From: Prasinococcaceae sp. CCMP 1430
Taxonomy: Eukaryota; Prasinodermophyta; Palmophyllophyceae; Prasinococcales; Prasinococcaceae
Length of the DNA stretch: 45,718 bases
Direction of reading: 5' to 3'
Assembly: GCA_013416795.1 (NCBI GenBank)
Contig: RQSC01001375.1
Coordinates: forward strand, 1-45,718
Shown in pieces: positions 17,398 to 39,009 of this stretch. Numbering within the stretch: position 1 is the stretch's first letter; each line of letters begins with the position of its first letter. Position numbers and translations under genes: made by a program. The notes under the pieces are model-generated. The model was given only the letters and a program-made list of their open reading frames with translations. It had not been told where the DNA came from and did no database searches.

Positions 17398-18678
17398 TCA
17401 ATGCCCTCTACGCGGCACGTACTTGCACACGACGTCGTAAAGCCTACCTCCGAGGCTCTCCGCAACTTCTGGGTGCTTCACCATGCCCAGATTGAGCCTG
17501 TCGCACGTTAGCTCCGCATTCAGGTTGGTCTCGATGCCGCGCCCCATGCCCTCGAGCACGACCAGGTCCGCGTCGGCCGCCGCTTCAGCCAGCTCTCGGG
17601 AAATCTTGCTCAGATCGATGACGGGATCGTCCGATCCGGAGTCTACCACCGATAGCATGCCACATTCGAGCAGACGGTGCACTTGCTCATCGTGCACGCG
17701 CGGCAGCGCGAGCTTGAGCTCCGCGGCGGTCATGTCGTTCAGCGAGGGTGTGTGATTGGAAGCGATCACCACCTTGGTGCCGCGACGGGCGAGTGCTCGG
17801 CAAAGCGGGAGCCTGCAGCGGGCAGGGGAATTTCCGGTCAGCGCGCGTACGCCGCACGGAAGAGCAGCCGCGTCCGAATCGTCAAGCTGAAACAGGCGCA
17901 CTAGCAGGCGCGCCAGATCCGCTGGTGCCACGTACATTCCGAGCCACATGTCCGCACCGGCATTGTCTACGAAGACGATCGCCTTCTTCCAGGGCGTAGC
18001 ACTCGAAGTCCACTTTGCCTTGAACTCATCCAGGCAGTCCACGCACCACGGACGCGGCAGTAGCTTGTCACGCGCGGAGGCGAAGCTCATGTTGCCTGCC
18101 TCGTACATATCCACCGTCGCCTTGGCGCCCAGGTCGAAGATGTTCCCCGCGAAGCACCCGCGGAGGAGCGCCTCGCAATGCGCGGCCTCATCGCCCGCGG
18201 CGGCCAATGCGTCAAGCTCCTCAAGAATCCCTGGCAGCAGTACGAGCGCGCGAGCGTCCTCCTCGGCCTTGACGCTCGCGAACGCGTCAGGGAAGCCAGC
18301 CTCACGCAGGCAGCGATCGCGGATCGCGCAGAGCGACAGGCAGTCGCTCTCACCGCTCGACTCGATGCGCTGGAGCTCGCGCTCGAAGCGCGCGCCAAAA
18401 GACTTGGCACGCGTCGCCGCGGGCTTGAGCTCGCCGGTGGTCTCGCAAGCGATCTCACCGGGCTCGAAGGCATCCGGCACGGCGCCCGAGCACTGCCGCG
18501 AGAGCGACGCGCGCTGCGTCATCGACGCGATCGACGCGCGGAAGACCGCCGTCCACGTGCCCAGCGGCAGCTTGCCCGCCGCATAATCGAACGTCGTCGG
18601 CACGTACGCAGCCGCCTCGCGCAGCAGCGGCAGCGGCACACGCCCACGCGCGTCGGCGCTCGCGTCCGCCGCGCACAT
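17398..18678 (-). CDS. DUF89 metal-dependent phosphatase (PANK4 C-terminal / At2g17340 type)
   Basis: DUF89 proteins are Mn/Ni/Co-dependent phosphatases. This branch is linked to damage control of sugar phosphates and phosphopantetheine. The 426-residue product carries the family landmarks in order: FDYAAGKLP near the start, FPDAFASVKAEED, LLPGILEELDALAAAGDE, FAGNIFDLGA, KKAIVFVDNAGADMWLGM (metal site DNAGAD), ARRGTKVVIASNHTPSLNDMT, and DLVVLEGMGRGIETNLNA then CDRLNLGMVKHPEVAESLGG and YDVVCKYVP. Length fits a stand-alone plant-type enzyme without the pantothenate kinase half. ATG 18678 is the first in-frame methionine. The frame extends upstream without ATG. A telomere-like AAAACCCTA lies about 120 bp upstream. 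The gene converges on the kinesin gene with a 127-bp gap. Confidence 0.88.
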   Translation of the reverse strand: MCAADASADARGRVPLPLLREAAAYVPTTFDYAAGKLPLGTWTAVFRASIASMTQRASLSRQCSGAVPDAFEPGEIACETTGELKPAATRAKSFGARFERELQRIESSGESDCLSLCAIRDRCLREAGFPDAFASVKAEEDARALVLLPGILEELDALAAAGDEAAHCEALLRGCFAGNIFDLGAKATVDMYEAGNMSFASARDKLLPRPWCVDCLDEFKAKWTSSATPWKKAIVFVDNAGADMWLGMYVAPADLARLLVRLFQLDDSDAAALPCGVRALTGNSPARCRLPLCRALARRGTKVVIASNHTPSLNDMTAAELKLALPRVHDEQVHRLLECGMLSVVDSGSDDPVIDLSKISRELAEAAADADLVVLEGMGRGIETNLNAELTCDRLNLGMVKHPEVAESLGGRLYDVVCKYVPRRGH

Positions 18679-19179
18679 CCCGAGCGCACTCGCGCACCTC
18701 CCACCCACCCACCCCCTTCGCCAGGCGTCAGCGCGCCTGCGGCCGCCAGTGCGCGCGCAGTGTGGCGCACCTCGGCCCCAAGCCCCCTCCCCCACCCAAA
18801 ACCCTACTACGTAATTCGCGTTTCTGACCCTATATCTCGCTCACGAGCTCCCAGCCTAACCACCACACACCAAGCTTTCATTTTCATGGGCTGCGACCCG
18901 TTTCGGTTCAGCTCGTGAGCTTTCCTGTGGCTTCATTTGTTATATTTTTACATTTTTCATATACACTTGCAAGACGTTGAAGATTCAAGAGCGCGGCGAG
19001 CTGCTGTTGCGCGGGGGCACCACAGGGCGTGCGCGGCGCAGCGGCGGGGGTAGGTAGGTAGGAGGTAGGTGGGGGGCGCGGCGGCGGTGGAGGCTGCGGC
19101 GGTGCCGATGGCGGCCGCGATCGTGCGGGCGTAGCGCGCCCTCCTTGTAACTGTCTGCCTTCTCGACGGTGAGCTTCAG
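18679..19179. other. Divergent intergenic region between DUF89 gene and histidine phosphatase gene
   Basis: No gene. It holds a telomere-like motif at 18798-18806, an AT-rich stretch at 18930-18975 (TTCATTTGTTATATTTTTAC) and a GGTAGGTAGGT run near 19050. The sequence just before ATG 19180 (CTTCTCGACGGTGAGCTTCAG) could be a splice acceptor, which would make the next gene start in an upstream exon. Confidence 0.5.
18798..18806 (-). promoter_or_regulatory. Telomere-like (telo-box) motif upstream of DUF89 gene
   Basis: The plus strand reads AAAACCCTA, so the DUF89 coding strand reads TAGGGTTTT. It lies about 120 bp upstream of that gene's ATG. It is one of five such motifs near starts in this window. 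A regulatory role is inferred by analogy with plant telo-boxes. Confidence 0.4.
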
Positions 19180-20061
19180 ATGGCGCGGTTCGCGCGCGAG
19201 GACCCGCCGCCGCGGCCCGTCCGGCCGGCGCGCATCGTCCTCATCCGCCACGGCGAGTCACTGGGGAACGTCGACGAGTCGGTGTACCAGACGACGCCCG
19301 ACAACCGCGTGCCGCTCACCGCGCGCGGCCGCGAGCAGGCCCGCGCCGCCGGCGAGAAGCTGCGTGAGATCGCCGGCGAGGACGGCCTGTACTACTTCTA
19401 CGTCTCGCCGTACACGCGCACTGAGGAGACCATGTTCGAGGTGTGCAAGGCGCTCGACGTGAGCCGCATCACTGGCGTGCGGGAAGAGCCGCGCATTCGT
19501 GAGCAGGATTTTGGCAACCTGCAGTCGGACGGCTCCGATGGCGGAGCGCCCATGGGGCTGCTCAAGCGGCAGCGATTGGCATTCGGTCGCTTCTTTTTCC
19601 GCTTCCCAGACGGCGAGAGCGCCGCCGATGTGTACGACCGCGTGACTGGCTTCCGGGACACGCTGCTCGCGGACATCAACATGGGCAGGTTCGCGCCCGG
19701 CACAGCCGGCGAGGACGGCGAGGGGAAAGGTGAGCACACTGTGGTTGTGGTAACGCACGGCATATCGCTGCGCGTCTTCCTCATGCGGTGGTACAAGATG
19801 TACGTCAATCAGTTTGAGATGCTGCCCAACCCGCGCAACTGTGAGCTCGTCGTGATGGAGCGCGGCGAGGGCGGGCGGTACAGCCTCATGCCCTTCCACG
19901 GCGAAGAAGAGCTGCGGCGGATGGGTTTTGACGATGCGATGATCGCCGAGCAGAGCTGGCACGCGCGCGGCGATGTGAAGGAGCTCAACCCGAAGGCCGC
20001 AGAGTCGGCCCGCGCGTGGCTCGACAACGTCGAGCGCAAGCTGGCCGCGCAGCGGGACTGA
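19180..20061 (+). CDS. Histidine phosphatase, AT74-like (phosphoglycerate mutase family)
   Basis: The histidine phosphatase superfamily transfers phosphate through a catalytic histidine. Plant AT74/DET-type members have poorly defined substrates. The 293-residue product begins with a short basic leader and the RHG motif IVLIRHGESLGNVDESVY. It continues with NRVPLTARGREQARAAG, FYVSPYTRTEETMFEV, REEPRIREQDFGNLQ, FGRFFFRFPDGESAADVYDR and the second catalytic His in VVVVTHGISLRVFLMRWYK. It ends with VNQFEMLPNPRNCELVVME and GRYSLMPFHGEEELRRMG. The order and wording follow plant AT74 almost throughout, so this is not a glycolytic mutase. An acidic insert (GTAGEDGEGKGE) precedes the second His motif. 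ATG 19180 follows a possible acceptor CTTCAG, so an extra upstream exon is possible. The gene converges on NMNAT 89 bp downstream. Confidence 0.88.
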   Translation: MARFAREDPPPRPVRPARIVLIRHGESLGNVDESVYQTTPDNRVPLTARGREQARAAGEKLREIAGEDGLYYFYVSPYTRTEETMFEVCKALDVSRITGVREEPRIREQDFGNLQSDGSDGGAPMGLLKRQRLAFGRFFFRFPDGESAADVYDRVTGFRDTLLADINMGRFAPGTAGEDGEGKGEHTVVVVTHGISLRVFLMRWYKMYVNQFEMLPNPRNCELVVMERGEGGRYSLMPFHGEEELRRMGFDDAMIAEQSWHARGDVKELNPKAAESARAWLDNVERKLAAQRD

Positions 20062-27152: not shown

Positions 27153-27285
27153 GTCGCCGCAGCTCCCCGGCGACTACGGCTGCGACCCCTTCGGCCTCGC
27201 CAAGGAGGAGAAGAACCTCCTGCGCTACTCCGAGGCAGAGCTCATGCACGCGCGCTGGGCGATGCTCGGCTGGGCCGGCATGATG
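27153..27285 (+). CDS. Light-harvesting chlorophyll-binding protein, orphan exon (helix 1 start)
   Basis: LHC proteins bind chlorophyll and carotenoid in plastid thylakoids. The exon encodes LPGDYGCDPFGLAKEEK, then RYSEAELMHARWAMLGWAGMM, the first transmembrane helix signature (ExxHxRWAMLGxxG) with its chlorophyll-ligand Glu and His. A good donor follows (ATG|GTGCGT, exon end 27285). The acceptor may be at 27152 or at 27162 (both CCGCAG). No transit-peptide exon is found upstream. None of the remaining helices appears in the ~590 bp before the next gene. The only candidate is a weak possible exon at 27416-27471 (starting LPAAGARAESG). So this is a truncated gene, a pseudogene, or a gene collapsed in assembly. 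The pattern resembles LHCB4/5 or LHCA proteins, but too little is present for a class. Confidence 0.75.
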
Positions 27286-27873
27286 GTGCGTGCGGGGGCG
27301 TAGGGGCGCGCGGCGGCGGCGCGTACGGCGGGGCGTACGGCGGCGCGTACGGCGGCCTGCTGTACGCGCAACATGCGTGCATGGGCTCTGTGGCGCACTG
27401 GGTACAGGTCGCCGCAGCTCCCCGCCGCCGGCGCTCGCGCCGAAAGCGGGGGCGGGATTCCTCCGGTGCGCGCGCGCGCGCGCGCGCGCGCGCGCGCGCT
27501 TGCGCTGCGCGCGCTCGGGGAACGGCACCATTCACCTGCATTTTGACCTCTCGAGCCGCAATGAAAAATCACATCCACAGCAGAATGCGAAGCTCTGACC
27601 CCCCTAAGAGGGAGGGTTAAGGTTTTGATGTGATCTCTTGGCGTTGTTTTGGTGTAGGGTTTGTGCTGTGTGGCAGACCGGAGACGCGGTACGAAGCGGG
27701 TGCGGTGGGGGTGCTGGTGAGCGTCACTCGGCGCCGCAGGACTGCCGCGGGGGGCGGGGGAGGGGGGTGGCTGCCGCCGAGAACGGACCGAGCGGGGCGC
27801 GTGGTGGCGCCGAGGCTGACGCTGCGGCCGCCGACACGCGCATGCGGTGGACGCGGGCGCGGGCGCGGGTGCG
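27286..27873. other. Low-complexity spacer downstream of the LHC exon
   Basis: It contains a GGCGTACGGC tandem tract (27324-27358), a GC dinucleotide run (27471-27500), a 19-bp copy of the LHC exon's acceptor region at 27406-27424, and a telomere-like TAGGGTTT at 27655-27662. No continuation of the LHC gene is readable. Confidence 0.5.
27655..27662 (+). promoter_or_regulatory. Telomere-like (telo-box) motif upstream of SWIM gene
   Basis: TAGGGTTT in the coding-strand direction, about 212 bp before ATG 27874. A related GAGGGTTAAGGTTTT lies at about 27611-27625. Confidence 0.4.
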
Positions 27874-28548
27874 ATGAGCGCCATGACAGAGTACGAGCGC
27901 CAGCGAGACGAGATCATCCGCCGCAACCGCGCCAAGCTCGCCGAGCTCGGCATCAAGCTCGCCTCGGAGCGCCTGCGGGCGCTCGCGCCGCCGGCCGCCG
28001 CGCCGAAGCCGAGGGCGGCTGTGGCCGCCGATCGCAAGCGGGCACGCGAGGCAGCCGCGGCCGCCGGCCCGGAGCGCCGCTCGGCGCGCGTGCGGAAGGC
28101 GCGGGGGGAGGTCCTCGAGGGCGAGGAAGCAGAGCTCGTGGAGCTGGAGGAGGATGAGCCGCGCGCTCAGGGCGTCCGCAAGAGTGGTGATAGGGTGGGC
28201 GGGCAGGTAGGCGCATCGCGAGCGGGCCTGTCATGGGAGGAGCGGCTCGCGGAGGTCAAGCTGGACCATTTGATCGACCTGTCTTCCGACGACGCAAAGT
28301 TCGTGATCCTCGGCAGCGCGGGCAAGCACTACGTAGTGACGCTCTCCGACGAGCGCCACACGTGCCAGTGCATGGACTTCCGCACGCGGGGCAAGCAGAG
28401 GCCGTGTAAGCACATTCGAGTGTCGCAGCAAGAGCTGGGGTTGGAGCAGGGTGCGCTGAAGGGCGGCGGCTGGCGTGCCGCCGTCGAGGCGACGCTCAAA
28501 GAGGACCTGGACAGATTGAATGCCGACCAAGAGGCGGTGGCCGCCTGA
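27874..28548 (+). CDS. Small SWIM-type zinc finger protein
   Basis: SWIM domains chelate zinc by a CxC...CxH pattern and mediate DNA or protein contacts. The 224-residue single-exon product starts with TEYERQRDEIIRRNRAKLAELG, a motif seen at the start of several plant and protist nuclear proteins. A basic RSARVRKARGE stretch and an acidic segment (EEAELVELEEDE) follow. The SWIM core is HYVVTLSDERHTCQCMDF then RPCKHIRV, with C-x-C-x12-C-x-H. A short helical tail follows. ATG 27874 is chosen; a second methionine follows three codons later. There is no catalytic domain, so this is an adaptor or DNA-associated protein of unknown function. It converges on the CBL gene 223 bp downstream. Confidence 0.75.
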   Translation: MSAMTEYERQRDEIIRRNRAKLAELGIKLASERLRALAPPAAAPKPRAAVAADRKRAREAAAAAGPERRSARVRKARGEVLEGEEAELVELEEDEPRAQGVRKSGDRVGGQVGASRAGLSWEERLAEVKLDHLIDLSSDDAKFVILGSAGKHYVVTLSDERHTCQCMDFRTRGKQRPCKHIRVSQQELGLEQGALKGGGWRAAVEATLKEDLDRLNADQEAVAA

Positions 28549-28771: not shown

Positions 28772-29839
28772 CTATTGATAGCTGCCATTAGGCGACACAG
28801 ATTGCTTGCCGGCGGCGGCTGGCTGGCTGGCGCCGCTGCGAAGCACGTAGACGCTCGTGGTTTCGATGAAGCTTGGGAAAGCGGCTGTTAGCTCTCGAAG
28901 CACGTCGAGAGTCATCGGGGCCAGGATGTGCGGCTGCCTGCTGCAGAGCTGTTGCTCGCGGAAGAGAACGCGGGCAACAGCGCGCGTCAGCGCCGGCGGG
29001 TGTACGCAGACGCGCGCGCAAGATCAGATGGTCGGAGCGGGAGTCATGCGCGCGTGCGGTCGAAGGCGCAAGGCGCGCACCTGCTTCCACTCCTCCATGT
29101 GGATCACGCCGTCACGGGCCAAGTCAGCCTGTTCAAAGGTCTCGTCGACCAGGCTGTCCATGGCCTCCATGGGGAGGGTGAGCCCGCTCTTCTCCTGCAC
29201 GAGGCCTTTAAGCATCGAGCGCACCTCGTCTGGCTCGATGACGCCATTTCCCTTCAGGTCGTACACACTGAACAGGAACTCGCTTTTGCTCTCCTGGTCC
29301 GCTCGGGGGTGAAAGACCTGCAGGCCCCGCACGAAGGCGTCGAACGATAATGTGCCTTCGCTCTTTGAGTCCAGCAGGTCAAACACCCTGTCCGCGAAGA
29401 GGCTCTTTGTACCGCGTGAGTCCGCGCGCGCGCTACCGGGCCTCCCGTTGCTGAGTCGCCCGTTGCCATTGCCGTTGCTCAGCGGCTTCCGCCCTGCGTG
29501 ATGAGCCTCCACCTCGTCGACGGCAGCCAAGGGGGCTCCCGGGCTGTTGGACGACGCCGGCCCGCCCCCCGCTGCCCCTTTGAAGAGCGCCTGCTTGAAC
29601 TCATCGCGGTGCATGAGTCCGTCGACATGAATGGTGTTCGCGGCCGCCTCGTGCATCGTGCGCAGCGCCTCGACCTCGGGCAGCGAGAAGAGCGTCTCGC
29701 GCGAGAGCTTGCGATCCTGTTCGCGCGTCGTGTGCAGCGCGCCGCTCGCACTCGACGCCCGTGCTGCCCTCGCGCTACCTGCACCCGCTGGCTCGCCCAC
29801 AACTGCCGGCCGAGCGCAGCACACGAACCACTTCGCCAT
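28772..29839 (-). CDS. CBL: Calcineurin B-like (CBL) calcium sensor, two exons
   Basis: CBL proteins bind calcium through EF-hands and activate CIPK kinases at membranes. Exon 1 (29839-29081, 253 codons) starts MAKWFVCCARP, whose cysteines could be lipidated; the MGxxx myristoylation start of plant CBLs is absent. Then come FSLPEVEALRTMHEAAA, MHRDEFKQALFK, a ~45-residue Ser/Gly/Asn insert, and FADRVFDLLDSKSEG (degenerate EF2, residue 157; last loop position Ala). FSVYDLKGNGVIEPDEV (EF3, 194) and ADLARDGVIHMEEWKQ (EF4, 239) follow. After a 132-nt GT-AG intron (29080-28949), exon 2 (28948-28772) encodes LCSRQPHILAPMTLDVLREL and TAAFPSF. This is the CBL C-terminus (NPSLIKNMTLPYL...TFPSF in plants). 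Total 311 residues. Exon 2 restores the family tail exactly, so the splice model is well supported. The intact EF3 and EF4 loops should bind calcium. Confidence 0.9.
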
Positions 29840-30051
29840 GACGACAGAGCTGTCCCTCTTCCCGCTTGGGTTGGCCTGCCCCGCGACGCGGAACGGACGC
29901 CGCCGGCCGCCGCGGCCGCCGCAGCCGCTGCCATCCCTGCCGCAGCCACGGGCGTACGCCGCCTGCGCTGTGGCGCCCCGGCGCTCGCACCGCGCCAAAC
30001 CCTCATCAAATTGCACGTTTGAAACTAACCCTGTGCCCATACCTTAATGTG

Positions 30052-30071
30052 AACCCTAACCCCAAACCCTA
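30052..30071 (-). promoter_or_regulatory. Double telomere-like (telo-box) motif upstream of CBL
   Basis: The plus strand reads AACCCTAACCCC then AAACCCTA, so two close copies read TAGGGTTT...TTAGGGTT in the CBL direction, about 213 bp upstream of its ATG. Far too short to be a true interstitial telomere array. Confidence 0.45.
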
Positions 30072-31339
30072 CCAGCGACCACCAACTGTGCGCCGAGCGC
30101 ACCGAGCCCACCACAGTGCGCGCGCGTGAGGGAGAGCGCAGCGCGCGCCCTGTGGGGGCGGTGGCCACACGGCGCGCGCCCGAGGCTGCCCGCGCAGACG
30201 GGGCCTTCCGGTGGGGGAGAGGGACGCGCACCGCTGCGCCCGGTCGTCCGCGCGCTCGTGTGCGTGTGCCGCGCGCCCCTCGCCGCGCGCTGGCCGCGCC
30301 GCTGCCCCGCCTCTGACTGACTGCTATGTGTCGTGCGCTTCCTTCGAGGCGGCGGTGGCGACCCTTCGGAGCACCCACAGCCGCACGTCCGAAATCGAAG
30401 CCGCCTTCCAATGTGCCACAAAAACGAAGGCCAAAATCAAAGTAAAAAAAAAGGGCGATGCGATGCGTTGGGTTTGACGAAGAAGCTTTTCGGGAGGGGC
30501 TGCGCGGCGACGTTCCACGAAGGCAGGGGGGCCGAAAGTGAAGGGTGAAAAGCACAATCAAAATCAAATTAAATCAAAACAAAAACAAAATCATGGGATG
30601 CGATGCTTTCGGTTTGGCGAGGTTTTTTTTTTTGCAACGAGGCGAAGGGAAAGGGGGCGACACAAAAAAAGTGCGCGTGTGCCGGCAGCCCCCGGCGCGC
30701 GCGCGCGCTCCAGCTGGGGCCGGGCGGCGGCGGCTGTGGGACCCGCGGACCACACCACAGCGCTGCTGAGAGCGGGAGCCGCGCGGCGACAGGGACGCTC
30801 GGCGCCTTGGGGTGGGGGCAGGGAGGGGGGTTGGGGGTGGTTGGGCGGAAGCGGGGAAGGGGTCCTGTGGTGGGCGGCGAAGCTGGGACCTGCGGGGCAC
30901 AGCGCGAGCGCGAGCGCGAGCGCGAGCGGCGCGCCCGCGAGGTTGAGGTTGGGGGCTCAGCGTTACGGTATCGGATTTCCTTTTCGCCCGGCGGTCCACA
31001 CGTGGTCCGAGTGCAAAATGACTCCAAAAAACGCAGGTGCGCGCAAAACTTCACCCGTAAAATTCAAACACATCAAAATGCATTGGGTGGCCTCTCCCGG
31101 TTGTTGCCGACGCGGGCCCTCGGGGAATCCGCTGCTTCAATCGGAAGAGGCCGCGACTGTTCGTTTTCGCGTGTTGAGAAATTTAGATCGCTTATGCGCT
31201 GTTTTACACATTCTTTGTGATATATGTGGTTACGGAATTGTGCGATTTCGGCGCGGCCGGGCGGAAGACGGCCCCAACAGCCGGCGCGTGCGCGCGTGGA
31301 CGCGCTGCTGCGGCTGCAAACGAAGGCGGTAATTTCGAT

Positions 31340-31405
31340 GCCCGTGAAACGGTCTGATAATCATATCTGAATATTAAAAGCGCGGTTTGATAGTATTTTA
31401 ATTCG
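31340..31405 (+). promoter_or_regulatory. AT-rich island upstream of CIPK, candidate core promoter
   Basis: Sequence around CTGATAATCATATCTGAATATTAAAAG and TTGATAGTATTTTAATTCG stands out in GC-rich surroundings, ending about 45 bp before the first ATG of the kinase frame. Role inferred from composition and position. Confidence 0.35.
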
Positions 31406-31450
31406 AAATCCGGAGAGCTATGGCGCCCCTCTGCGCGTGCACGCACACGC

Positions 31451-33187
31451 ATGCGGGCGCCACAGTGCGGGCCGCATGCGCCCGTGGGGCCTGGCCGGCG
31501 GGGGAGGGGGATGGCGCGTGGGACGGTGCGAGCGGTGGCGGTGATGCTTGCGGCGTCGGCGGCGGCGATGGTGATGGACCGCGAGGGCTGGCTGGCCGCC
31601 GTGGGCGGCGCGCGCGACGCGCTAAACTTCAACAACAGCGCCACGAGCGGGGAAATCACGCTAGGGCCGCGCGCGCATGCGCGGCTGGGGCGCTTCGAGC
31701 TCGGCCGCACGCTGGGCGAGGGCGCCGCTGGCAAGGTGCGCTACGCCGTGGACTCGCAGGACCCGGCGCGGACGCCGTACGCCATCAAGGTGCTAGACAG
31801 AGAAGCGGTCGACAGGCAGGGCATGATGCCCTGCATCAAGCAGGAGATTCGTGTCATGCGCGCGCTCAGGCACCCGTGCATTGTCAGGCTGCACGAGGTG
31901 CTGGCGAGCCAGAAGAAGATATACCTGGTCATTGAGCTGGTCACCGGCGGCGAGCTGTACGATCGCGTCGCGCACGACGGCCATTTGAATGAGGTCAAGG
32001 TGAGGCGCTACTTGCAACAGCTCGTGGACGCCATCGACTACTGCCACTCAAAGGGAGTGTACCACAGGGACCTCAAGCCCGAGAACATCTTGCTGGATAC
32101 TTCATCCGATACCGTCAAAATCGCCGACTTCGGGCTGGCGGCGGTGGTAGACCCGCACGCGCCCGCGAAGGAGCGCATGCTGCGCACGCTCTGCGGCAGT
32201 CCGAATTACGTCGCCCCGGAGGTCCTGCGCGAGGAGTCGTACGACGGCGCAAAGGCTGACGTGTGGGCTCTGGGCGTGATCGCGTTCATGATGGTGTCTG
32301 GCAGGCTCCCTTTCCATTCCGAAAACATGCCAGAGCTCTACAGGCAGATCAACAAGGCCGAGTATCGCGTGCCAGGCTACGTGAGCAACGGCATGCGCTA
32401 CCTGCTACGGAAGGTATTGGAGCCTGATCCGTCGCTGCGCGCCACAATTGCCGAGGTGCGCAACGACCCGTGGTTCCTCAAAGGCGGCTATGTGCGACGC
32501 GAGCCGCTGCCAGACCCCTCGCAACTCAGGCGACTGCGGTCCCGCCCGCCAGCAGCCACCGCGGGCAGGATCTCGTCGCTCATGCACCAGGTGACCATCA
32601 GCGACGTCCCCCGCGTTGAGGAAGAGAAGTCGACCGCTTGGATATCGGTGGGCGGCCGTGACGGCTCTGCGTCGGACTCCGCAGCGACGAGTGACAGCAG
32701 CGAGCCTGGCACCCCTCGCGTGCGACGCGTCCACTCGCTCAATGCCTTCGAGCTGATCGCCATGGGGAGCATGGGGTTGGATCTGAGCGCAATGTTCGAA
32801 AAGAGAAAGGACGTTGTGGGACGCCACACGCGTTTCTGCGCAGAAGCGGGGGTTGAAGACATTCTGAGCGCCATCACGAGCGCCGCAAGCGACATTGGCG
32901 CGGTGGCGACCGACAGCAGCGACGACGCCGAGGAAGGCGGGGAGGCCGCCGCTGAGCTGCGCCTCGATTGGACGGGTGCGCGTGGCCCCGCTGCCATGCG
33001 CTGCGAGGTCTTCCGCCTCGCACCCGGCATCCACATGTGCGACTGCTGCCGCATTCGCGGCGACGGCTTCGAGGTGCACTCGATGTACACCAAGCTCGTG
33101 GTCGCGCTGGGCGACCTGGTGCTGAAGAACCGAGACGACGTCAGGGCCTTCGACTCGAACGTGCGCGTAGACCGACTGATCTCGTGA
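31451..33187 (+). CDS. CIPK: CBL-interacting protein kinase (CIPK/SnRK3-type) with NAF motif
   Basis: CIPKs are Ser/Thr kinases switched on when calcium-loaded CBL binds their NAF motif. The 578-residue single-exon product has a SNF1-type kinase domain (~77-340): GEGAAGKV, Lys113 in AIKVLDREA, HRDLKPEN at 205-212, Asp226 in DFG, activation loop LRTLCGSPNYVAPE, ALGVIAFMMVSGRLPF. After a Ser/Arg-rich linker comes SLNAFELIAMGSMGLDLSAM (N431-A-F; plant form NAFDIIS...GLDLSGLF). Then RHTRFCAEAG follows, like the protein phosphatase interaction segment. The C-terminus (LRLDWTGARGPAAMRCEVFRL ... KNRDDVRAF) fits the KA1-like tail. The start is uncertain. ATG 31451, 31511, 31568 and 31574 are all in frame, and the first two add a hydrophobic leader unusual for CIPKs. 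Its upstream neighbour, transcribed away from it, encodes the matching CBL sensor. Confidence 0.9.
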   Translation: MRAPQCGPHAPVGPGRRGRGMARGTVRAVAVMLAASAAAMVMDREGWLAAVGGARDALNFNNSATSGEITLGPRAHARLGRFELGRTLGEGAAGKVRYAVDSQDPARTPYAIKVLDREAVDRQGMMPCIKQEIRVMRALRHPCIVRLHEVLASQKKIYLVIELVTGGELYDRVAHDGHLNEVKVRRYLQQLVDAIDYCHSKGVYHRDLKPENILLDTSSDTVKIADFGLAAVVDPHAPAKERMLRTLCGSPNYVAPEVLREESYDGAKADVWALGVIAFMMVSGRLPFHSENMPELYRQINKAEYRVPGYVSNGMRYLLRKVLEPDPSLRATIAEVRNDPWFLKGGYVRREPLPDPSQLRRLRSRPPAATAGRISSLMHQVTISDVPRVEEEKSTAWISVGGRDGSASDSAATSDSSEPGTPRVRRVHSLNAFELIAMGSMGLDLSAMFEKRKDVVGRHTRFCAEAGVEDILSAITSAASDIGAVATDSSDDAEEGGEAAAELRLDWTGARGPAAMRCEVFRLAPGIHMCDCCRIRGDGFEVHSMYTKLVVALGDLVLKNRDDVRAFDSNVRVDRLIS

Positions 33188-33675: not shown

Positions 33676-36600
33676 CTAGCCCTCCGACGGTTCGGGCTCC
33701 GAATCAGCCTCAGGCTGCTCAGCGTCGAGGTTGGAGTCCTCTGAGTCGAGGTCCCCGGGCTGGGCTTCTGGCTCCGCCTCGGGTGGGGGCGCTTCCTCAG
33801 CGGGCTCCTCTTCGGGCTCCGCCTCAGGTGGGGGCGCTTCCTCAACGGGCACTTCTTCGGGCTCCGCCTCTGGCGGGGCCACAGGCTCAGGAATGGGCTC
33901 GGATGGCGGCGGGGACTCGGGCTGAGGACCAGGTGGTTGTGGTACAGGTCCTTCCGTCGCCGGCACAGGCGCCGTCGTCATCGGCCCTTTCGTCAAAGGT
34001 CCAGGTTCGGGTGCAGTGTCCACTGGGCATGAGTCGACAGCGCAGCAATAGCAGTCGACCTTGCCGTCGCACGTGTCCTGCTGGCACTGGCCCTCGTACC
34101 ACACGCAGCCGTTGGGCACACAGTCAAAACACGAAGTGTAATCCCCACACTTGGGTGGTAACGGGCAGGTGCCTTCGCAGCAGTAGCAGTCGTCTTTGCC
34201 GTCGCACGTGTCCTGCTGGCACTGGCCGTTCCACCACACGCAGGCCTCCTGCGGCGTGCACTCGCCGCACGTCGTGTAGTCGGCGCAGACCGGCGCCGGG
34301 CAGGTGCCTTCGCAGCAGTAGCAGTCGTCTTTGCCGTCGCACGTGTCCTGCTGGCACTGGCCGTTCCACCACACGCAGGCCTCCTGCGGCGTGCACTCGC
34401 CGCACGTCGTGTAGTTGCTGCACGTGTCCGCGACACCACACGTGTTTGGATCGCTCTTGCAGTTCGGACTGTCTGCGCTGCATGGCCCGTCGCTGCACTT
34501 CCCGTCCGTGTAAACGCATCCCGCCCCTGTGCATTCAACGCACCCACTGGCGCCCAATTCGAGACGTGCTGTCAGAATGCTGCATTGGACACCACCGTCG
34601 CACTCCTCAATTGCTTGGTAACACTGTCCCTGCTCGGGCGCACACGGCCCGTCCTGGCAAAGTCCTTGCCACCACGAGCACGCCCCGTCGCCCAGGAAAG
34701 CACAGTCCTCACAAGTCAAGTAGGCCTCGCATCCGCTTGGCATCGGGCAGGTGTCGTAAGTCGTGCTACAACTCGTTTGAGAGGGTGTGCACCCACCCTC
34801 CTGGCAGGTCCCTGTCTCTGCGTCCCAGGAGCACCCGCTGCCTGCATCTTCCTCGCCGGGGTTGAGCTGGCGCACCGACTGTAGGGCCGTGGTACCGACG
34901 CAAGTACGACACTCGGTGCTCTGCGAACACAGAACAGGGCACATGTCGGGAGTGTCGTGGCACTGGACGCCTGTTACGTTGCACTCAGCGCCGGCCCTGC
35001 ACTCTCCAGTCGAAGGATACCAAGCGCATCCCAATGACGAGGCGGCACACGGAGTGCATGACGTATAGTCCTCGCATACGTCCTGCACAGGGCAGGTGCC
35101 AGGTGCCTGGTAGCAGGCCCCATCGTCTGGTCCGCAAGGCCCGCCCTGACACGTCGCGTTGCCTGTCCACTTGCAGCCGAGTCCTGCGCCCACGCACTGG
35201 CCGCAGTCGTAGATCAGAGCACACTCTACGGGGCACGCCACTGGACTTTCGCGGCATTGCACGTCCGGAGGGCAGGGACCTTGCTCACACGCACCGTCCA
35301 CCCATCGGCACCCTTGCTCACTCCCTGCGCAGCTGGGGCAGCTAGTGTGGTCTTCACACGCAACCACCGGGCACGCCATCCAGTCCGTGTAGCATGAGCT
35401 GTCCGACGCGCCACAAGGGGTGGACGAGCAGGTCTCGTTGACGCTGTGCCATGCGCAGCTTGTCGGCAAGGAAGGATCTGTGCACGATCCGCAGTCGTAG
35501 TGCTGGTCACATGGCTTGGCCGGGCACTCGAGGTCCGAGTCAGGACCCACGCAGCCAGGCAGGCCGTCACACTCCAAGCCGGGCTGGCAAGTTTGCGTCT
35601 CGCCGTCGTCTGTGTAGATGCAGCCGTCCAGATTCAAGCAAGTGTCACAGTCAAAGGCTGTGTTGCATGCGATGGCATCTGGGTCGGACGGGGGCCCATA
35701 CGCCGGGCAAAGCGCCGACTCGTCCGTGCACAGGCCCATACTCAGCGCCGTCGCAGAGCACGCGCCCACTTGGCACACACCAGAGATGTAGGAACATCCG
35801 GTGTCGCCGGCGGTGCAGGATTCGCAGTCGGTGTACGATGAGCAGACGCTGTCCGTGCAGACGTCTGCGTAGCAAATTTGCTCGCAAACTGTCTGACATA
35901 TGGTGGTGCAGTCATCATGTGGGCAATACGGACACTCAGCCACACATTTGGTGATGCACTGTGTGGAGCAATGCGGCACGCAGACGACTTCGTAGCAAGT
36001 GACGTCCGGGCACTCCTCGGGCGCGAAATAGCACCCGGAAATTCCTGGTGCGTCCGGTGCGCCCGGTGCCCCTGGTGCGCCTGGTGCGCCCGGTGCCCCT
36101 GGTGCGCCTGGTGCGCCTGGTGCGCCTGGTGCGCCTGGTGCGCCTGGTGCGCCTGGTGCGCCTGGTGCGCCTGGTGCGCCTGGTGTGCCTGGTGTGCCTA
36201 TGGCGCACTCCTCCACCGAGACGCAGCCTGGTGAGTCCTGCGCTATTGAGTATCCGCACCCGGGCGTGCGCACGCACTCGGCGCAATCCAAAACCTGATC
36301 GCAAGGGGGCGGACACGTCGAGGCGCTGTCGTGGCACGACGGCTGCTCGACGCCGCATTCCTGATCCTGACACACGCTCGCGATCCCGTCCCATGAGCAA
36401 TTCGACGAGGCTCTCGCGCACGAGAGGCAGTCCGTCCAGTCACCGCACACGGGCACGGGGCACTCGTCCTCATTGCCGTAGCAGGCGGTCTGGTCACTGC
36501 CACACGGGCCGTCCTGGCACGCGCCGTCATACCACGAGCAGTCAAGCTGCGAGGAGGCGCACGTGTCGCACGCGGTGTAGTCCTGACAGCTCGGTGCGGG

Positions 36601-37878
36601 GCATTCCTGCCCGCTGTCCTTGTCGTAGCATCCTTCCGTGTCCGCGTCGCACGGCCCTGCGCTGCAGATACCCTGATAGTAATTGCAGCCGCAGCAGCCG
36701 ATGGTTGCGTTGGCGCATGAGACGCAGCCGGTGATGTCGCCGCACTCTTTGACATCGCACGCCTGCGGGTCGCTGTAGCAGTCCTGCTCACCTTCAGAGC
36801 ACGCCCCGGCGTCCTGGCAAAGCCCCTGCCGCCATATGCAGGCAGAAGAGTTGCGTGCCGTGGTGCACGTGTAGCAGTCGGTGTGGACGTCGCACCCTTC
36901 TACCGGGCAAGTACCCTCTTCGCTGTAGCAGTCCAAGCCGTTGTCGCATACCCCGGGCTCGCAGGCACCCGACGACCAACGGCAACCCGCCGAGGAGGCC
37001 ACGCACGACTCGCATGCAAGGAAGTCCTTGCACACGTCCGGTTCGCATGTCTCCGGGATCGTGTGGCATTCGGTCTGCGTCGGCTTGCACGGGCCGGGTC
37101 GGCAGGCGCCCTCGAACCACCGGCACAAGAACGGAGTCACGCACGAGCCCGACGACGGCTCAAGGCACGGCACCGACCCGTTGGTGTTCGACGACGCGCA
37201 CGAGAAACAGTCGAGATAGTCGGAGCAGGCGGGCGGCGGGACGGGCGGTGCCTTGGTTGGCGGCTCGCACTCATTCGCATTGAAGGTCGTGTAGCACTCC
37301 TCGCCGACGAGCGGACACCCGACCCTGCACTCTCCGCCTTGCCACCCACACCCAAAAACTGCCGCACAGTCGGCGCACGCCGAGTATTGCGAGCAGTCGA
37401 GGTCCGGCGGGCACGCGCCGTTGTCGAATTGGCACGCTTCAACGTTGCACACGCTGTCACACTCGGAGTCAACCTCCCAGCCGGGCGCGCACCCAGGGGC
37501 GCAGCCATTCACGCATACGTAGCTATCCCATGCACAGGCGGGCGTGTTGCACTCCGGCTGGCACGTCGTATCGAGGCGGTACTCGGGCAGACACCCAATC
37601 TCACAGAGGCACGCGCCGAGGTCATAGCCACATGCGGAGGTGTCGCACGCGGGGTCACAAATCTCGCTGACGAGCAACTCGGTCGTGCACCCACCGCTCA
37701 TGCACTCCGCCAGGTTCTCAGGTGCCGGAGCGCCGGGCGGAACGACGACCGCGTGGGCACACCCTGGAGCGTTCGCCGCCAGCGCGCCCAGCAGTAGCAG
37801 CGCCGCCGCGAGCGGCGACGGTCCCGCCGCGCGCGACCGGATGCTCGCGCCGAGTGGATGCGAGCGCTCTGATGCCAT
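33676..37878 (-). CDS. Secreted LNR - PSI-like repeat - collagen-like Cys-rich protein
   Basis: The 1,400-residue single-exon product starts with a signal peptide (hydrophobic LAAALLLLGALAANAPG at ~24-40). Three Lin-12/Notch-type repeats follow (CDPACDTSACGYDLGAC, CQPECNTPACAWDS, CDSVCNVEACQFDNGAC). Then come about 20 PSI-like modules of ~45 residues, each of the form C-x2-Y/F-x-x-C-x2-C...C-x-W-x5-C-x3-C (for example CQDYTACDTCA, CADYTTCGECT). After the eighth module lies a collagen-like block of about 17 Gly-X-Y triplets, mostly GAP (36040-36203), then a Cys/His/Val-rich stretch (CVPHCSTQCITKC). The C-terminus is Pro/Glu-rich and very acidic (PPPEAEPEEEPAEEA). No membrane segment is visible after the signal, so it is probably secreted or wall/scale-bound. 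ATG 37878 places the signal correctly; ATG 38037 would add 53 residues before it. No homologue with this architecture comes to mind. The function is unknown, with extracellular adhesion or matrix most likely. Confidence 0.85.
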   Translation of the reverse strand: MASERSHPLGASIRSRAAGPSPLAAALLLLGALAANAPGCAHAVVVPPGAPAPENLAECMSGGCTTELLVSEICDPACDTSACGYDLGACLCEIGCLPEYRLDTTCQPECNTPACAWDSYVCVNGCAPGCAPGWEVDSECDSVCNVEACQFDNGACPPDLDCSQYSACADCAAVFGCGWQGGECRVGCPLVGEECYTTFNANECEPPTKAPPVPPPACSDYLDCFSCASSNTNGSVPCLEPSSGSCVTPFLCRWFEGACRPGPCKPTQTECHTIPETCEPDVCKDFLACESCVASSAGCRWSSGACEPGVCDNGLDCYSEEGTCPVEGCDVHTDCYTCTTARNSSACIWRQGLCQDAGACSEGEQDCYSDPQACDVKECGDITGCVSCANATIGCCGCNYYQGICSAGPCDADTEGCYDKDSGQECPAPSCQDYTACDTCASSQLDCSWYDGACQDGPCGSDQTACYGNEDECPVPVCGDWTDCLSCARASSNCSWDGIASVCQDQECGVEQPSCHDSASTCPPPCDQVLDCAECVRTPGCGYSIAQDSPGCVSVEECAIGTPGTPGAPGAPGAPGAPGAPGAPGAPGAPGAPGAPGAPGAPGAPGAPDAPGISGCYFAPEECPDVTCYEVVCVPHCSTQCITKCVAECPYCPHDDCTTICQTVCEQICYADVCTDSVCSSYTDCESCTAGDTGCSYISGVCQVGACSATALSMGLCTDESALCPAYGPPSDPDAIACNTAFDCDTCLNLDGCIYTDDGETQTCQPGLECDGLPGCVGPDSDLECPAKPCDQHYDCGSCTDPSLPTSCAWHSVNETCSSTPCGASDSSCYTDWMACPVVACEDHTSCPSCAGSEQGCRWVDGACEQGPCPPDVQCRESPVACPVECALIYDCGQCVGAGLGCKWTGNATCQGGPCGPDDGACYQAPGTCPVQDVCEDYTSCTPCAASSLGCAWYPSTGECRAGAECNVTGVQCHDTPDMCPVLCSQSTECRTCVGTTALQSVRQLNPGEEDAGSGCSWDAETGTCQEGGCTPSQTSCSTTYDTCPMPSGCEAYLTCEDCAFLGDGACSWWQGLCQDGPCAPEQGQCYQAIEECDGGVQCSILTARLELGASGCVECTGAGCVYTDGKCSDGPCSADSPNCKSDPNTCGVADTCSNYTTCGECTPQEACVWWNGQCQQDTCDGKDDCYCCEGTCPAPVCADYTTCGECTPQEACVWWNGQCQQDTCDGKDDCYCCEGTCPLPPKCGDYTSCFDCVPNGCVWYEGQCQQDTCDGKVDCYCCAVDSCPVDTAPEPGPLTKGPMTTAPVPATEGPVPQPPGPQPESPPPSEPIPEPVAPPEAEPEEVPVEEAPPPEAEPEEEPAEEAPPPEAEPEAQPGDLDSEDSNLDAEQPEADSEPEPSEG
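34163..34415 (-). repeat. Two identical 118-bp copies at 135-bp spacing within the Cys-rich gene
   Basis: 34163-34280 and 34298-34415 are identical by eye. They encode the module CVWWNGQCQQDTCDGK ... CYCCEGTC twice. A diverged third copy lies at about 34030-34150. Identity at silent positions points to recent duplication or gene conversion. Confidence 0.9.
36040..36203 (-). repeat. Collagen-like tandem repeat (9-nt units)
   Basis: The plus strand repeats GGTGCGCCT with GGTGCCCCT and GGTGCGCCC variants. The coding strand gives Gly-Ala-Pro triplets bounded by GTPGTPG and DAPGISG. It stays in frame across the block. Confidence 0.9.
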
Positions 37879-39009
37879 GGGCTCGGCGTCTCTCGGCTCA
37901 AGCACGCGATGTCCCGTTGATGCAGGCTCCGCCGCAGCCGCCGCGCAGCACGTCTGCTTGCTGCGCCCGCTGTGCCGCGCCCCGCTTGGCGCGCCCGTGC
38001 GCGCCGACGGGTGCGCTGCAGCATTGCGTGTGCGCATGCGTTTTCCCTGCGCGCGTCGCGAGCGCGCGCGCAGCAGCAGCGCGTCGCCGCGCGCACCGCT
38101 GACGCACGACCTGCCGTATCAAATCCTAACCACCAGCGCGCGTGCCCGCACAGCGCCGCGCCGAGATTTGCACGCGTGGCGCGCTGCCGGCGGCCCGCCG
38201 CCGCCGCAGCGCTGGCCAATTCAGGGCGCAAGCTCGCACGCATGCTCACGAACGCGCGCGCTCCCGCGCCCGCATGCGCGCACTCACACGTACGCGCACG
38301 CACGCACACCACAGTCACACACGGCGGCGGGCTCTCTCCCATGGGACCCGCCGCCGCCTCTCGTGTCGCGGAGGGCGCACGTTGCAACGTTGCACCCACA
38401 CGTTTGGCCCGCATCGTTGACTGAGCCCTGCGCGCGTCCCCACGTTGGCGGCCGTATCGGGCGCGATTCGCACCGGACAGCGAATTCGCACGAGCGATGT
38501 CAGTCCATCATTATTAGTTAGGGGCGTTGCTCGTACTCGTGGCGCCAAATCCGAATCGAGATTGGACTGCCCCGTTCGAGTTTTCACCTCCGTATCGAGA
38601 TCGTGGGCGTGCAGCTCCTTTCGTTTGATATGGCCATCAAAACGCACGTGCGCGAGCGCGCGCGCGCGCCCGGCGGCTCGGAGCGGCGGGCGGGAGGGGC
38701 GGAATTCGATTTGATGGGGGAGACTTCAAGGTCGCAGTGCGCACGAGGTATGACACGAACCCTAAAACCCGATAAATGCGCGGTGTTTGGTTTCGGTTAC
38801 GATCTTGCATCAAAATGCATAGGGGAGTGCGTCGCGCAGGCAAGGCTAGGTCGCAGTGCTCGCCGCTGCGGGTGTGCCACACCTCCTCCTCCGCAAGCCT
38901 CCCGCCTTCCCTCCCTGGCCTGGGCGCGTCGCGACCGCGCGGCCGCCCTCGCGCCGCGCGCCCCCTCAGGGGGCCTCCGGAGACCTCCGGAGGAGCGCCG
39001 GCCGTGCCC
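37879..39009. other. Divergent region between Cys-rich gene and PRP4 kinase gene
   Basis: No gene recognised. It includes an optional N-terminal extension of the Cys-rich gene (to ATG 38037), a GC-dinucleotide run near 38651, an ATTATTAG stretch near 38511 and a telomere-like motif at 38758-38770. Confidence 0.5.
38758..38770 (+). promoter_or_regulatory. Telomere-like (telo-box) motif upstream of PRP4 kinase
   Basis: AACCCTAAAACCC on the plus strand, 240 bp before ATG 39010. It is inverted relative to the other four, which read TAGGGTTT toward their gene. Confidence 0.35.

Follow-up and report, generated by a model that had tools for sequence, protein, structure and literature searches.

Comparison with described CBL-CIPK systems

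In the green alga Prasinococcaceae sp. CCMP 1430, a gene for a CBL calcium sensor and a gene for a CIPK kinase lie side by side on contig RQSC01001375.1 (assembly GCA_013416795.1), and the closest described systems are the CBL-CIPK pairs of other green algae and the families of Arabidopsis. According to the available text of two papers, a single CBL and a single CIPK are the norm among the green algae that have these genes (PMC4030171, PMC4990929). Ostreococcus, Bathycoccus and Klebsormidium likewise possess one CBL and one CIPK, with an invariant NAF motif and the same domain order; the available portions of these papers do not mention adjacency of the two genes, whereas in the alga considered here they are divergent neighbours and EF1 and EF2 of the CBL are set apart by a long insertion (PMC4030171, PMC4990929). 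According to PMC4030171, the land-plant network, with its 26 CIPKs and 10 CBLs in Arabidopsis, presumably arose by growth from one pair. A small sensor-kinase module is also described outside land plants, in Trichomonas vaginalis, where the interaction was tested; this organism has four CBLs, and the available text of the source says nothing of linkage (PMC4990929).

The Arabidopsis proteins permit a comparison at the level of residues. The algal CBL shares with CBL2 and CBL4 (SOS3) the order of the EF-hands, the long EF1 loop, the LFADR segment and the MTL..FPSF tail, with 42-45% identity over the aligned core, and differs from them in a degraded EF2, in an EF1-EF2 spacing of 76 residues against 23, and in a dissimilar N-terminus (MAKWFVCC). 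The algal CIPK has its kinase domain, NAF motif, phosphatase-interaction segment and C-terminal region collinear with those of CIPK23 and CIPK24 (SOS2), and is 45% identical to CIPK23 where the two align; it differs in having some 50 additional residues at the N-terminus and a longer linker between the kinase domain and the NAF motif. As for gene order, we know of no CIPK that adjoins a CBL in Arabidopsis, judging by gene numbers.

The window is the whole 45,718-nt stretch of DNA analysed and the whole of contig 50; the assembly to which it belongs has gaps and totals 24.5 Mb, spread over 145 contigs. Apart from the two genes in the window, no CBL and no CIPK were found in this assembly, and it is highly probable that their products function together as a cognate Ca2+ sensor-kinase module. 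Both genes belong to their respective families, carry intact family motifs, adjoin each other and have no second family member in the assembly. It is the linkage that is unusual; the proteins themselves make up a canonical Ca2+ sensor-kinase module.

The CIPK gene

The kinase gene lies on the plus strand and includes the following features.

31511..33187, plus strand: CIPK coding sequence, intronless, 558 aa; best match AtCIPK23, followed by CIPK24
31694..32476, plus strand: protein kinase domain with AIK, YHRDLKPEN, DFG and the activation segment LRTLCGSPNYVAPE (Pfam Pkinase, 225.7 bits, and alignment)
32741..32806, plus strand: NAF motif NAFELIAMGSMGLDLSAMFEKR, the CBL docking site (Pfam NAF and alignment with CIPK23)
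32816..33127, plus strand: CIPK C-terminal region with the phosphatase-interaction segment VGRHTRF.. and a KA1-like part, collinear with CIPK23 311-441

The frame is open from an earlier ATG, and from there it spans 31451-33187 and would encode 578 aa. The codon scores are non-coding for 31451-31510 and coding from 31511 onwards, so that 31511 is the likelier start. Among the proteins of the PDB, the three best matches are CIPK23 (two sequences, E 1e-104) and CIPK24/SOS2 (7e-99), which stand more than 110 bits above the SNF1/AMPK types when the whole protein is compared. The catalytic motifs and the activation segment are collinear with those of CIPK23, as are the NAF motif and the C-terminal region. 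The presence of a NAF motif had been claimed in an earlier sequence-only reading of this DNA, and it is borne out by the Pfam search (PF03822, 41 bits against a cut-off of 25); the residue number given there, N431, fits a start at 31451. Judged by these comparisons, the kinase is a genuine CIPK (SnRK3) and an ordinary member of the family.

The CBL gene

The sensor gene lies on the minus strand and consists of two exons, which together encode a product of 311 aa.

29081..29839, minus strand: CBL exon 1, from the ATG (MAKWFVCC) to EEWKQ, with four EF-hands (Pfam EF-hand families)
28949..29080, minus strand: CBL intron, 132 nt, GT..AG, a multiple of three in length, with an in-frame stop
28772..28948, minus strand: CBL exon 2, C-terminal MTL..FPSF segment and a 31-residue tail, ungapped against the C-termini of AtCBL2 and CBL4
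28868..28879, minus strand: CBL FPSF motif (alignment with AtCBL2 and CBL4)
29600..29641, minus strand: EF1, extended loop of the CBL type, ANTIHVDGLMHRDE, its first ligand position occupied by A where S is usual; the invariant F comes next (alignment with AtCBL2 and CBL4)
29417..29578, minus strand: low-complexity insertion between EF1 and EF2, in frame and without a stop
29336..29371, minus strand: EF2 loop DSKSEGTLSFDA, lacking the terminal acidic ligand (alignment)
29225..29260, minus strand: EF3 loop DLKGNGVIEPDE, canonical (alignment, and Pfam EF-hand_1/6 at residues 189-212)
29090..29125, minus strand: EF4 loop DLARDGVIHMEE, with the terminal E retained (alignment, and Pfam EF-hand_5 at residues 231-254)

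In the comparison with solved structures the best matches are AtCBL2 (E 2e-42) and CBL4/SOS3 (1e-37), and calcineurin B and the neuronal sensors are well behind. The four EF-hands have the CNB/NCS arrangement, as found with Pfam for EF3 and EF4 and by alignment with AtCBL2 and CBL4 for all four. The EF1 loop has 14 residues, exceeding the standard 12, and is aligned with that of CBL2 without a gap; a long EF1 loop with F directly after it is a described CBL feature, according to the available text of PMC4990929. From LFADR onward, the alignment with AtCBL2 and CBL4 contains a single one-residue gap. It crosses the intron ungapped, from EEWKQ into LCSRQP and through to MTLDVLRELTAAFPSF, which supports the splice sites. 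This family C-terminus, MTLDVLRELTAAFPSF, is encoded by exon 2 and, since the intron contains an in-frame stop, retention of the intron would remove the C-terminal FPSF segment. In plants, FPSF is the site phosphorylated by CIPKs. The EF3 and EF4 loops, which the earlier reading had described as intact, are indeed so in the alignment with AtCBL2 and CBL4, and the C-terminus typical of the family, which it had also named, is present. By its sequence, the protein is a genuine CBL and an ordinary one.

Copy number and adjacency

CBL (minus strand) and CIPK (plus strand) are divergent immediate neighbours with start codons 1.67 kb apart. A two-exon CBL and a CIPK had been proposed as divergent neighbours from the letters alone; both genes are at this place, and no gene was detected between them. 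The NAF profile search of the assembly gave exactly one match, at the CIPK described here, and neither the NAF model nor the kinase query revealed a second CIPK in the assembly. The closest other kinase has an SnRK1-type layout with a UBA-like segment (43%). In the same way, searches of the assembly with two protein queries, and with a DNA pattern that encodes FADRVFD, did not reveal a second CBL. The next match of the CBL queries, at 28-30%, is an EF-hand protein whose loops include several canonical ones (contig 21, ~18677-19219, minus strand). A second match of the DNA pattern for FADRVFD (C52) was rejected as spurious, its frame being without CBL-like context. It had been considered as a possible objection that other CBL or CIPK genes might pair better, and no rival partner was found in the assembly for either protein. 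Thus, each of the two genes is the sole member of its family found in this gapped assembly, and the two are neighbours.

The probability that one given pair of genes is adjacent by chance is about 2/7,000, i.e., about 3 in 10,000, if some 7,000 genes are assumed after the count for Prasinoderma coloniale (PMC7455551). This number alone is no proof of selection, because genomes have many dedicated partner pairs and some adjacent pair is expected somewhere. No published case of CBL-CIPK gene linkage was found in a full-text literature search, the coverage of which excludes most subscription journals. No relatives of CBL or CIPK were found in the genome and viral contig collections scanned, which contain no algal genomes.

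The intergenic region and the 33-nt element

The region between the two genes contains a short element present once before each gene, the core of which is also found elsewhere in the window.

29840..31510, no strand: intergenic region between CBL and CIPK, with no coding open reading frame (ORF), tRNA or known RNA family detected
29946..29978, minus strand: 33-nt element, CBL copy, starting 139 nt before the CBL ATG
31455..31487, plus strand: 33-nt element, CIPK copy, starting 56 nt before the ATG at 31511
12185 (+), 18766 (-), 11476 (-), 29974 (-) and 31459 (+): sites of the core GCCACA[GC]NGC in the window, each 52-266 nt before a gene start on the same strand

Two ORFs of 244 and 205 aa were considered as a possible hidden gene between CBL and CIPK and rejected, both having negative codon scores. 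No Pfam match was found for the 244-aa ORF, and the intergenic region gave no tRNA or Rfam match. A segment of 64 bp at 30119-30182 has a 98% identical copy on contig 71 (354693-354756); the rest of the region is unique in the assembly.

The 33-nt element came from a repeat search. Its two copies are identical at 28/33 positions and form an inverted pair, each having the same sense relative to its own gene. The ungapped similarity falls to background on both sides of the copies. Random pairs of 400-bp stretches reached 28/33 in 0/1,968 and 2/5,899 trials, and when the same geometry was slid along the contig, the CBL-CIPK place was the only one found. No further copies of the element occur elsewhere in the assembly at up to three mismatches. 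Within the contig, 2.2% of 33-mers matched for GC content have an equally good second copy.

The element was at first taken as proof of co-regulation, as it seemed specific to the pair; its core was then found to be a recurrent upstream word. In the window, the core GCCACA[GC]NGC also stands upstream of unrelated genes on the same strand: its distance is 136 nt for a kinesin gene, 88 nt for an ARMT1-like gene and 266 nt for a CLASP-like ORF, compared with 135 nt for CBL and 52 nt for CIPK. With one mismatch allowed, the 18-mer form of the core has 46 matches genome-wide and its reversed control has 2, a contrast that a background of GC runs may inflate. Comparison of sense and antisense ORFs at 18 other loci gave 5 vs 3. 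The core appears to be a promoter word in general use in this alga, with only the right-hand part of the element apparently specific to the pair.

Alternative explanations

The sequence-only reading had described the locus as a two-gene calcium switch and one co-regulated locus. The switch is upheld in that both products are true members of the CBL and CIPK families; the case for co-regulation is weaker, as the gap is not unusually short for the gene density of the genome and the core of the element lies upstream of unrelated genes. The recurrence of this core is what lowered the claim. It is somewhat more likely than not that the adjacency is a chance neighbourhood in a compact genome, where the two genes have independent promoters using a general promoter word; this explanation rivals co-regulation only. 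It is consistent with the core, in the form GCGCCACA[GC]YGC, preceding five gene starts of the window on the same strand, those of CBL and CIPK among them, with the excess of the 18-mer over its reversed control, and with the fact that divergent neighbours arise by chance. Chance accounts less easily for the low probability calculated for this pair specifically and for the full 33-nt element being common to CBL and CIPK only. The divergent pair may instead be one regulatory unit, in which the intergenic region with its pair-specific element would set both transcripts and keep sensor and kinase in step. Such a unit can be proposed tentatively: the partners are single-copy and divergent, and an element unique in the assembly stands near both starts in the same sense without longer homology to explain it. 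However, half of this element is the general word, it emerged from an open search rather than from a hypothesis set beforehand, and the distance is long for a bidirectional promoter, the starts of which are close and usually less than 1 kb apart; the CBL and CIPK genes are divergent with 1.67 kb between start codons. It is also conceivable, though rather unlikely, that the paired elements are the remnant of a small local inverted duplication with no regulatory role. The copies do lie as inverted repeats at either side of the intergenic region, and other 33-mers of the contig have equally good second copies at the frequency given above, but both copies lie near a start codon in the sense of their own gene, and no other such pair turns up when this geometry is moved along the contig.

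Several features of the sensor itself weigh against the proposed sensor-kinase module. EF2 is degraded and EF1 is without the usual first S, so the Ca2+ affinity of this CBL may differ from the usual one. The wide spacing of the EF1 and EF2 loops amounts to 53 extra residues relative to CBL2; it far exceeds the 23 residues of land plants and the 19-24 given for others in the available text of PMC4990929. The EF1-EF2 spacing varies within the family and does not define it. Part of the insertion could be an unrecognised intron, since its codon score is poor. No clear N-myristoylation signal was found at either possible CBL start; the two cysteines in MAKWFVCC might be acylated. The missing last acidic residue of EF2, the 53 extra residues, an intron whose retention removes the tail, and the codon scores of the insertion and of exon 2, which are at or below zero, could be taken as signs of a decaying or non-functional CBL. 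This is very improbable: the frame is open throughout, EF3, EF4 and the MTL..FPSF segment are kept, the core exon scores as coding and the partner kinase is fully intact.

Neighbouring genes

The light-harvesting model has 22 matches in the assembly, so the organism is photosynthetic; these matches and the SnRK1-like kinase with its UBA-like segment are in line with a green alga. In the window, a lone light-harvesting-protein exon is located at 27160-27300 (+), covering positions 8-54 of PF00504; the contig contains no further matching exons, and this is possibly a gene fragment. A short piece beside it is repeated at ~27405. The gene adjoining CBL in convergent orientation, at 27874-28548 (+), has a small product in which a SWIM-like zinc finger scores below the Pfam cut-off. 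Next to CIPK, and convergent with it, is a long ORF at 33676-38037 (-) that contains a collagen-like stretch as well as a cysteine-rich unit in repeated form, and matches no other Pfam family.

Proposed mechanism and significance

It is very likely that CBL and CIPK are a cognate pair; the co-regulated locus is unproven. By analogy with the plant families, binding, activation and membrane targeting would proceed as follows. Ca2+ would load the EF-hands of CBL, most clearly EF3 and EF4 and probably EF1, and the Ca2+-loaded CBL would grip the NAF helix of CIPK. This binding would free the kinase from autoinhibition by its C-terminal inhibitory region, and CBL would carry it to a membrane. CIPK would be activated through phosphorylation of its activation segment, and the active kinase may in turn phosphorylate the serine of the CBL FPSF motif and membrane transporters. 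The assembly contains several genes of the Na+/H+ exchanger family, none of them established as the SOS1-like type, and by the same analogy these are possible CIPK targets. That the head-to-head placing ties the expression of the two genes together is a weaker proposal, to which we would give about one chance in three, and the placing may equally be a chance neighbourhood.

If the adjacency is due to chance, the locus offers no more than a clean one-to-one pair in which the CBL is unusual. A sole CBL and a sole CIPK found head to head make a clean system for the minimal module, with no partner ambiguity. The locus also raises the testable idea that the ancestral CBL-CIPK pair was once one locus. 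In its fullest form, which seems improbable at present, the arrangement in this early-branching green alga would reflect an ancestral one-to-one module that was a physically linked, co-regulated locus bearing an upstream element specific to the pair; the link would have been lost, and the two families enlarged, before the module passed to land plants.

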